Assembly (NCBI RefSeq): GCF_958295425.1 | Contig: NC_081150.1 | Location: 13,267,001-13,331,000, forward strand | Source: Solea solea | Taxonomy: Eukaryota > Chordata > Actinopteri > Pleuronectiformes > Soleidae | Direction of reading: 5' to 3' | DNA length: 64,000 bases | Shown here: positions 12,301 through 15,300 of the stretch, in pieces | How positions within the stretch are numbered: the first letter of the stretch is position 1 | How the letters are laid out: every line of letters begins with the position of its first letter | Program-made: the position numbers and the translations under genes | The notes under the pieces: model-generated | Told to the model about the DNA's origin: nothing | Databases searched by the model: none | What the model saw: only the letters and a program-made list of their open reading frames with translations

Positions 12301-15300
12301 GCAGGGAGAAAGCCGTGGGATGTTTTGGCACAAACACGCCTGATCTCATCAGATAGAACCCAACATTTGGATTCACCTGGAACAAGCCCAGTTGTTCTAC
12401 CTTTACTATCATGTTGGCACATTGGGATCAGCAACTACACAAGCTACCGCCGAGAACACGAGTGGTTTTGATTTCTAAAATGCTTCATCATCCTCCAGGT
12501 GTTTGGGGTTGTTTGAGGATGGCGCCCTGTACTGTGTGTTACTGTAAAGCCCTGAGGCCATACTGTATCCACAGGTGACGCCACATGAGCTCAGGCAACA
12601 GTGAGTTTGGTTAAGAGATGCAGGAGTGAAATAGAGACTCCAGCACATACCAACACCAACACCTTAGATTAGTAATCAAATATCCAGGCTGTGTTATTGA
12701 AAACACTTTGTCATACATGCATGCATACTGTTCGCATATACATGCAATCTTGTTGTTTTTTAATTTTTATTTATTTATTGATGGCAACTGCAGTACAGGA
12801 CCAAACCACAAGAATTATTTTATTTCATACATTACAGACAATATAGATTTATTGTGATGTAAATATTGTGTAATTAATATTTTTATATTGTAAATCCATC
12901 AAATAACTGACTGTCTGTCTACCTTCCTTCCTTCCTACCTATCAATCCTTCCTGCCTTCCTACCTAACTATCAATCCTTGCTTCATTCCTTCCTTTCTTC
13001 ATACATCCTACATACCTACCCTTACTACCTAACTATCAATCCTTCCTTCCTTCCTTCCTTCCTACCCACCCATCTATCTGGTTTAGGTTTTTTCATAATA
13101 TACTGTATCAGTGTTGTATGTCATGTGGATGTCATTGTTTTTGCAATCTGATCAGATTAGATTTGTGTATCAGATTATAGGCTCATGTGGTTTGGTCCTT
13201 ACTGTACAGGTTTTCCACTCAGTATTATTTTAGAGCGTGCTGATAGAAAAGATAGAGACAGGCGTGGTTGCGTGCTACATGAACAGAAAGAAAGGGAAAC
13301 AATGGGAGAGATGACAGAGAAATGAATGGAGGGCTTCAGGGGAAGAGAAGTGGGTGGAGTTAGTTGCACGAGCCATGCGATGGGATCGTGTGTTTACCCC
13401 CTGACATAGATGTCAGACATCTTCTCTCCTGTCATGAAAGCATCGTCCTCTAGAATTACGTCATCAGTGTTCCAAATAACAACACGAAGCTCAAAGCTGG
13501 ACACCAGCAGAGCAGTGACCAGAGAAGAGAAAAAGAGAGGGACGAGATAGACAGACAGACAGACAGACAGAGAGGAGACACACCACAAACACAAAGACAG
13601 ACGGTACAAACAGGCACACAGAAAAAAATGGAAACAAAACAAAAATAATGGTTAACTGCAAAAAAAAAAAAGAAGAAGTCCACACACAGCTCACACCCAC
13701 GGGACGAGGCTTGACTGCCGTGACCCGCTGTACCTACCCCCTGACAAATATGTCACTGGACTTTTCCCCAGTGAAGTAATCATCGTCCTCCAGTATTACT
13801 TCGTCTGTATTCCAAATAATCACCCTGAGCTCATATCTGGTAAGGGGGGCAGGAAGGGACACATACACACACATCGTTGGACTTGGCAGTCAGTAGATAG
13901 CTAGCTAGTGAAACAGACTCACCATAATTCAACCTGGGGATAAAACTACACATTTCTGTTGGAGAAAAAAAACAAACTACAGAATTTTAGACACCCTCCA
14001 GAGACAGTAAACAAACCTTTTCATGTCTCGTCATCATACAAGAAGACAACATTCAAAATGACATCTTTCTACTCTTCTCCAGGTGTACCTCTTTGGTTTC
14101 CGCGGTGATATGTCAATCGCAGGTCCAGGTGCAGGCATGTCCATGGGAAACATATCAACCCACATCTCAACACGGCCCTTTGGACGCAAAGAGAGAACAA
14201 TACTGTGAGTGTCACTTGTATCTGGTTTATGTCTCCGTACAAGTGCGGGTCATTTCTCACCTGTTCGATGCCGGGCTTGTCCGGGTTCAGCAGGGGTCTG
14301 GTCTCCACGTGCTCGCGGACGAGCTTGCAGCCGACTCGGGGGATTTCCTCCCAGCGGTTGAGCACCGTCAGAGCCAAATGCTCTTCTGTCTGCTTCTTCA
14401 AACCTGAGCGATCAATAAAGGAAGGAGGGAAACAAAAAGCATGAGAATGAAACACACGTTTATTCTAAGATATTCATAGCCCTGTTATAATCAAATAATA
14501 GGATTTCCAGTATCTGACAAACTTAATAATGAGTATAGGATGTCATCACATATGGCGAATGTACACTACTACTTAAGTAGTGTAGATGAAGAGTTGATGT
14601 TTTTCTGACAGCAACAAACATCTTTCCTATGTAAAATATTTGATACAACACATGTTTTACATATAAATGAGACATTTTAAGTTGTCTATGGAGGACATTT
14701 AAGTGACCTAACAACCTTAGTGTAGAAAAATGCAGCTGTACCATTCTCATCCTCTAACTCCGTCGCTCCCAGGAAGATTCGATTTGCCACCTTGACTTTG
14801 CCTCCAGGCCCGTAATGAGGTCCATCAATCTTGCCGTCCTTACAGAGCTTAGCCAAGATCTGGCTGGGCTTCATAGGGTCTCGCCATACATTATATCCAT
14901 GGCTTATAATAAATGGAGAACAAAGAGGTTACTGAGATTCTGAGGTAATACAATTAATACCATAGAACTTTATTTGAACTTTATTTTTACTTGTAGATAT
15001 TTTCTTTTAATTAAACATCTCTCTAAAAGGCAAAGAAACGTTGATGCTCACACTGAATAGTTGGCGGAAATGCCACACGTGGCTCTGTATTTGCTGTAGA
15101 AACGATTCTCCAGGTCAATCTTTGTCTCTCCGATCAGGTCGTCGGTTCCGACCAAGTCCCAGTCGTACACGGACACCGTCAGCATGGACTCCATGGGGAA
15201 AGTGGCCTCGATGTCGAATGATCTGAACACGGAGGAAGAGAGGACAGAAGTGAACAGAAGGAGAGGAGAATTCAAATACAAAGAGACCAGATTCTGGTCT

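Follow-up and report, generated by a model that had tools for sequence, protein, structure and literature searches.

The otoferlin gene and its duplicated exon

The window, that is, the whole stretch of 64,000 nucleotides analyzed here, contains an otoferlin gene on the reverse strand, and all of its mapped exons are open. The spliced exons give a model of 1646 residues, 1645 of which are identical to otoferlin isoform X19 of Solea solea; the gapped alignment of the model with X19 extends over 1764 columns because the model omits some exons. The C2G piece matches the PDB otoferlin with E=4.5e-73. Identity across the C2 domains and the C-terminal transmembrane anchor identifies the gene as an otoferlin, a type II ferlin. 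The anchor is encoded by two homologous alternative last exons, at 10060..10240 and 9140..9320 (both on the reverse strand), which we take from mammalian OTOF sequence to be exon-47-like and exon-48-like, respectively. A third type of tail ends the models of Danio (P0208), sturgeon (P0183), frog (P0219) and lamprey (P0218), and a motif search of the first 12 kb of the window did not find it. An opposite-strand neighbor at 621..1100 (forward strand) matches Pfam NYD-SP28 (PF14772, E=7.5e-12) and is probably DRC1, a gene of the dynein regulatory complex.

In the last C2 domain, two 99-nt exons lie in tandem on the reverse strand. Exon B (13738..13836) is the mammal-like copy of the β1-loop1-β2 exon and encodes (R)+32 residues+(G), and its best match in the PDB is otoferlin 9qe2. 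The alternative copy, exon A (13398..13496), encodes (S)+32 residues+(G), with a changed loop tip and the three loop-1 Ca2+ ligands kept. A 241-nt intron (13497..13737) separates them. Both exons have the same 1/2 split-codon phase, AG acceptors, GT donors and no stop codons. The upstream exon (14177..14089, reverse strand), which ends with ...DISPRKPK and two nucleotides of a split codon, and the 242-nt downstream exon (11704..11463, reverse strand) splice in frame to either copy. The downstream exon contains the loop-3 ligands and is the equivalent of mouse exon 43 (bp 5426-5667 in the cited section of PMC10751786).

An earlier note on this DNA had described the two exons as a tandem duplication in otoferlin, and the observation itself is confirmed: the duplicated exon lies inside the last C2 domain, with the length, spacing, phase, splice sites and open frames that were reported. 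The label C2F given to that domain holds in the older six-domain scheme; in the current scheme the domain is C2G. Direct comparison likewise gave 25 of 33 identical residues (the shared last Gly counted) and 72 of 99 identical nucleotides, and the reported likeness of copy B to mammalian otoferlin is borne out by the match to the mouse chain. The three substitutions named at the time (the third Asp of EDDD to Ala, Ser to Met before SD, and Arg to Ser at the junction) are correct. In total, the 32 full codons hold eight replacements, in addition to the R/S junction codon; those absent from the earlier list are F1747M, Y1746F, F1756Y, E1738D, I1732V and Y1727F.

An independent repeat search recovered the pair as 13395-13500 against 13735-13840, so that the similarity stops 3-4 nt beyond the exon edges. 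The 60-nt intron flanks of A and B agree at 20/60 and 17/60 positions, which is the chance level, and the best ungapped match of exon B elsewhere in the window (both strands, excluding 13200-14000) is 46/99. The pairwise dN/dS of the two window copies is 0.127 with a dS of 1.57, near saturation. These values indicate an old duplication under selection and not a recent copy. Two other features were observed in the surrounding introns. Degenerate tandem repeats of the CCTTCCTACC type occupy 12918..13079 in the intron that follows exon A, and two 28-nt arms with 75% complementarity (12145-12172 and 13669-13696) flank exon A. The arms could loop A out, or, as they were seen in one species, may be due to chance.

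Distribution and conservation of the two copies

Protein searches were performed with copy A (best 120 of 3370 matches) and with a lizard copy A (best 120 of 2056). Both long queries were thus copy A, and all models returned are predictions. The matches listed comprise 165 distinct proteins, full-length or partial, of which 96 are A-only, 68 carry B and A, and one is B-only. Copy A is found in lamprey (P0218), sharks (P0058 and P0193), Polypterus, sturgeon, many teleosts including Danio rerio (X31), frogs, lizards, a turtle and the golden eagle; four teleost entries with copy A among the matches listed are named "Otoferlin a". The suggestion that the pair is specific to fishes is not tenable, since copy A occurs from lamprey to eagle, and the comparison of protein models in other teleosts and tetrapods shows it conserved and not degenerate. 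Both copies occur in shark, sturgeon, lizard and turtle models, while the frog, eagle and lamprey models carry A. The duplication is therefore at least as old as the jawed vertebrates, and, judging from these predicted proteins, the pair is older and more general than the earlier note proposed. A search of viral and genome contig collections with the exon A peptide returned no related locus.

The sole mammal among the matches listed, Cricetulus griseus (P0179), is B-only, which is suggestive of a loss of copy A in mammals. The best 120 matches of the lizard query extend down to about 218 bits, the score of the eagle copy, so that a mammalian copy A could lie lower. Among the best 120 of 3370 and 2056 matches to the copy A queries, no B-only fish model was found. 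In the hamster protein (otoferlin isoform 1), a 20-residue stretch of the exon after B is doubled, which is probably an artifact of annotation or assembly.

Models carrying both copies were available from 35 species, and 28 of these were compared with one protein each; Perca flavescens, Solea senegalensis, Brachionichthys, Hippocampus zosterae, Anarrhichthys, Hemibagrus and Coregonus were omitted, and 86 of the 96 A-only proteins also fall outside this comparison. Over 32 residues, the mean number of differences is 1.93 among A copies, 0.47 among B copies and 7.6 between A and B. The A copies thus vary about four times as much between species as the B copies, and their average identity is 94% across the 28 species, which include shark, sturgeon, teleosts and reptiles. 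In a wider tally of the matches listed (164 A and 68 B copies in the 165 proteins, with A also in 55 of 57 fragments), the separating sites are nearly fixed. Site 1745 is Ala in the 164 A copies (one Gly) and Asp in the 68 B copies, site 1746 is Phe in A and Tyr in B (two Phe), site 1747 is Met or Leu in A and Phe in B, and site 1752 is Met in A (one Val) and Ser in B. Site 1756 is Tyr in A and Phe in B; it is fixed by construction, since the copies in this tally were sorted by that residue. As extra variants, Anarrhichthys and two fragments have Gly1745, while Hemibagrus and one fragment have Gln1742. Together with the dN/dS of the window copies, the conservation in 28 species points to purifying selection on both copies.

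Calcium site and membrane-inserting loop of C2G

In the cryo-EM structure of mouse otoferlin, as described in the cited section of PMC12526402, loop 1 of C2G contributes the Ca2+ ligands E1742, D1743 and D1754, and loop 3 contributes D1829, A1830 (backbone), D1831, S1834 and D1837. Two further loop-1 residues, F1746 and F1747, are among those inserted in, or near, the membrane (PMC12526402). When the window gene is placed on the mouse numbering, it agrees at 18 of 19 anchor residues with either copy; the exception is Tyr at 1746 for copy B and Met at 1747 for copy A. E1742, D1743, D1754, D1829, D1831, S1834 and D1837 are all present with either exon. Among the 219 A copies in the matches listed, D1743 and D1754 are kept in all and E1742 in 217; Gln replaces E1742 in Hemibagrus guttatus (P0066), a catfish, and in fragment P0156, so the Ca2+ site is altered in these A copies. 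The catfish protein perhaps marks a lineage whose A isoform binds Ca2+ differently.

The earlier note had linked the changed Asp to Ca2+ binding. The loss of a ligand is not supported for this gene, since mouse D1745 lies outside the published ligand set and both copies retain E1742, D1743 and D1754. What differs between the copies is the loop tip, Asp-Tyr-Phe in B and Ala-Phe-Met in A, together with the change of Ser1752 to Met. Since the Ca2+ ligands are kept and the tip is changed, an argument from membrane insertion replaces the argument from calcium. It is a natural inference from the sequences that copy A may alter membrane insertion or lipid preference.

Exon usage and splicing signals

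Eight of the nine Solea solea models among the matches listed (X1-X7 and X11) contain B and A in tandem, and X19 is A-only. With 68 of the 165 proteins listed holding B and A, these eight included, the choice of one copy is not the sole annotated outcome. One-copy isoforms are represented by the 96 A-only models of the 165 listed and, for B, by chain 9qe2 and Cricetulus P0179. As far as gene models go, the alternative use proposed earlier is upheld by the A-only isoforms predicted in Solea and many other fishes; copy A thus already figures in databases, as part of predicted isoforms.

Double inclusion and double skipping of the exons are both in frame and without a stop codon, so the reading frame and nonsense-mediated decay cannot enforce the use of one copy. 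The separation of 241 nt also exceeds the length for simple steric exclusion. Given the B+A models in many species, exclusivity of A and B may be leaky or absent.

Splice sites were scored with a home-made scheme on 28 mapped exons, which form part of the gene. Exon A ranks 26th for its acceptor and 25th for its donor (tied with two). The 150 nt upstream of exon A contain 13 CU motifs, the highest number among the 28 acceptors, and the next highest is 9. Two TGC (UGC) triplets at 13507..13514 (reverse strand) follow the pyrimidine tract of exon A and precede its AG, and none of the other 27 mapped exons carries a pair of UGC triplets within 30 nt of its acceptor. Since its splice sites are weaker and its upstream intron is CU-rich, A is probably spliced weakly and subject to regulation, with B as the default copy. 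SRRM4-dependent exons of the inner ear are described in the cited section of PMC3464207 as having a pyrimidine tract with UGC near the 3' end, and exon A shows such a motif layout along with its weak splice sites. Control of exon A of the SRRM4/PTBP1 type is a hypothesis suggested by this analogy. In the 96 A-only models listed, classified with home-made motifs, no sign of coupling between exon A and a particular transmembrane exon was seen; their tails are exon-47-like in 47, exon-48-like in 36, of the third type in 6 and unclassified in 7.

Which copy is older

Sixteen invertebrate-like fragments (P0158 and P0161-P0175), chosen by eye from the 57 with P0157 and others left aside, carry Ala, Phe, Phe, Met and Tyr at the five separating sites and so agree with copy A at four of them. 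None of the 57 fragments contains a B copy; the query that retrieved them was copy A, so B-like invertebrate sequences could be missed. Dysferlin and myoferlin score 160.6 and 172.1 bits with the copy A query and 152.9 and 167.5 bits with the copy B query, whereas the otoferlin chain shows the reverse preference (234 bits with A and 246.7 with B). Returned by both queries, these two ferlins back M1752 and Y1756. FER1L6 may have Ser at this position 1752, and the polarity would then be less simple.

A tree was built from 43 rows and 32 columns, comprising 14 species with both copies, seven A-only rows, five of the 16 fragments, two type I ferlins and mouse. All B rows including mouse form one clade on a long branch with 100/99 support, a value from few columns and a bootstrap that had not settled. 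The A rows do not form a clade; they lie mostly on short branches and share an unresolved node with the fragments. B is thus probably the derived copy and A the older form, an outcome that sampling with an A query favors. A wider scenario can be put forward tentatively, and we hold it for somewhat doubtful. A would be the original C2G loop inherited from invertebrate type II ferlins, and B, with D1745, Y/F1746-F1747, S1752 and F1756, would have arisen by exon duplication in vertebrates, no later than the origin of the jawed vertebrates, and become the loop of today's mammalian hair cells. Non-mammals would still switch between the copies for different membrane docking in the ribbon synapses of different cells, and mammals would have discarded the ancestral exon.

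Interpretation and alternatives

A and B are an ancient, conserved tandem duplicated exon pair of otoferlin, and we consider it probable that their substitution by alternative splicing tunes the membrane insertion of the last C2 domain, C2G. Each transcript would normally take one copy, and either isoform would keep the full Ca2+ site. In the exchange of A for B, D1745A would remove an acidic residue beside the inserting tip, Tyr-Phe would become Phe-Met and Ser1752 would become Met. The swap may alter the depth and lipid choice of C2G docking on the plasma membrane, and the altered docking may tune the Ca2+ dependence of vesicle docking or fusion across the cell types that express otoferlin.

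The main competing account, which we regard as improbable, is that A and B are commonly spliced together, giving a C2G with a 33-residue in-frame insertion and no either/or choice. The frequent B-then-A order speaks for it, as it recurs, among others, in the "isoform X" models from Solea, Chaetodon, Channa, Cheilinus, Mugil and Gouania, and nonsense-mediated decay would leave such stop-free transcripts intact. However, species with B+A models also have A-only models (Solea X19 against X1; Mugil X9/X12/X16 against X3/X4), and the PDB otoferlin chain contains B without A. Several B+A models with generic names (Phrynosoma, Chelonia, Scyliorhinus and Nibea) may be ab initio predictions joining every open exon, and a doubled β1-loop1-β2 unit seems hard to accommodate in a C2 sandwich. 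AlphaFold2 models of the B+A protein P0063 (20-row alignment) and the A-only protein P0211 (17 rows) gave mean pLDDT values of 35.8 and 30.4, with the C2 domains unfolded in these models, values too low to bear on this fit.

Two further accounts concern copy A itself. A reading that follows from the earlier note, in which exon A lacks a Ca2+-coordinating Asp and yields an otoferlin of low Ca2+ affinity, is very unlikely. One acidic residue of loop 1 does turn into Ala, ligand E1742 is lost from the A copies of P0066 and P0156, and mouse inner hair cells lose Ca2+-triggered exocytosis when Asp residues in the top loops of the domain are changed to Ala (cited section of PMC10751786). On the other side, the loop-1 ligands of the cryo-EM structure (PMC12526402) do not include the changed D1745 and are all kept in this gene, and the aligned position has no acidic residue in dysferlin and myoferlin either. 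We give hardly any weight to copy A being a functionless relic or splicing noise. Its splice sites do score under most of the 28 mapped exons, and it is the more variable copy, but the 94% mean identity, the nearly fixed diagnostic residues, the low dN/dS and the A-only isoforms predicted in many species argue against decay. Overall, the earlier interpretation is partly supported.

Otoferlin is the proposed Ca2+ sensor of hair-cell exocytosis, which in mice requires that its last C2 domain bind Ca2+. The preferred reading, tuning of C2G membrane insertion, would make this pair a ready-made separation of Ca2+ binding from membrane insertion, as the natural loop variant keeps the ligands and changes the tip in this gene. 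In non-mammals, hair cells, retina or brain may rely on a form of otoferlin that lies outside the work on mouse, and mammals may have lost that form. If A is indeed ancestral and was lost by mammals, studies of mouse otoferlin would cover only half of the ancestral repertoire.

Comparison with known systems

A literature search, in which subscription journals and preprints were thinly covered, found no description of the A/B exon pair among the matches listed, and the string OTOF does not occur in the main texts of two human surveys of tandem duplicated exons (PMC9741552 and PMC5740500). The known alternative exons of mammalian OTOF are 6, 31 and 47/48 (cited section of PMC10394277), and a short otoferlin isoform is on record (PMC10227054). 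Like the A/B pair, these exons represent splicing of otoferlin that alters tissue-specific properties, and exons 47/48, like A and B, encode alternative versions of one segment (PMC10394277); a similar last-exon pair is present in the window. In contrast to A/B, none of them, nor the short isoform, touches the Ca2+-binding loops of the last C2 domain in the cited sections of PMC10394277 and PMC10227054; the A/B pair sits one exon upstream of the equivalent of mouse exon 43, apart from exons 6, 31 and 47/48. It is also distinct from the exon 6-10 variant of sterlet sturgeon Otof, which is kept in ampullary organs and not in neuromasts, and which represents a difference between organs with ribbon synapses (cited section of PMC13069148).

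The closest known systems are tandem duplicated exon substitutions such as SNAP25 exon 5 (PMC2581893) and the human set (PMC9741552), which likewise consist of neighboring homologous exons with the same length and phase, differ by conservative substitutions and are of ancient origin, as far as the cited sections describe them. The events of the human surveys (PMC9741552 and PMC5740500, in the sections cited) are annotated in human, whereas copy A of otoferlin was seen in no mammal among the matches listed. The otoferlin pair also differs from this set in that 68 of the 165 predicted proteins listed hold both copies. The equal length and phase of the otoferlin exons, the purifying selection on both and the predicted one-copy isoforms liken the pair to tandem exon substitutions.
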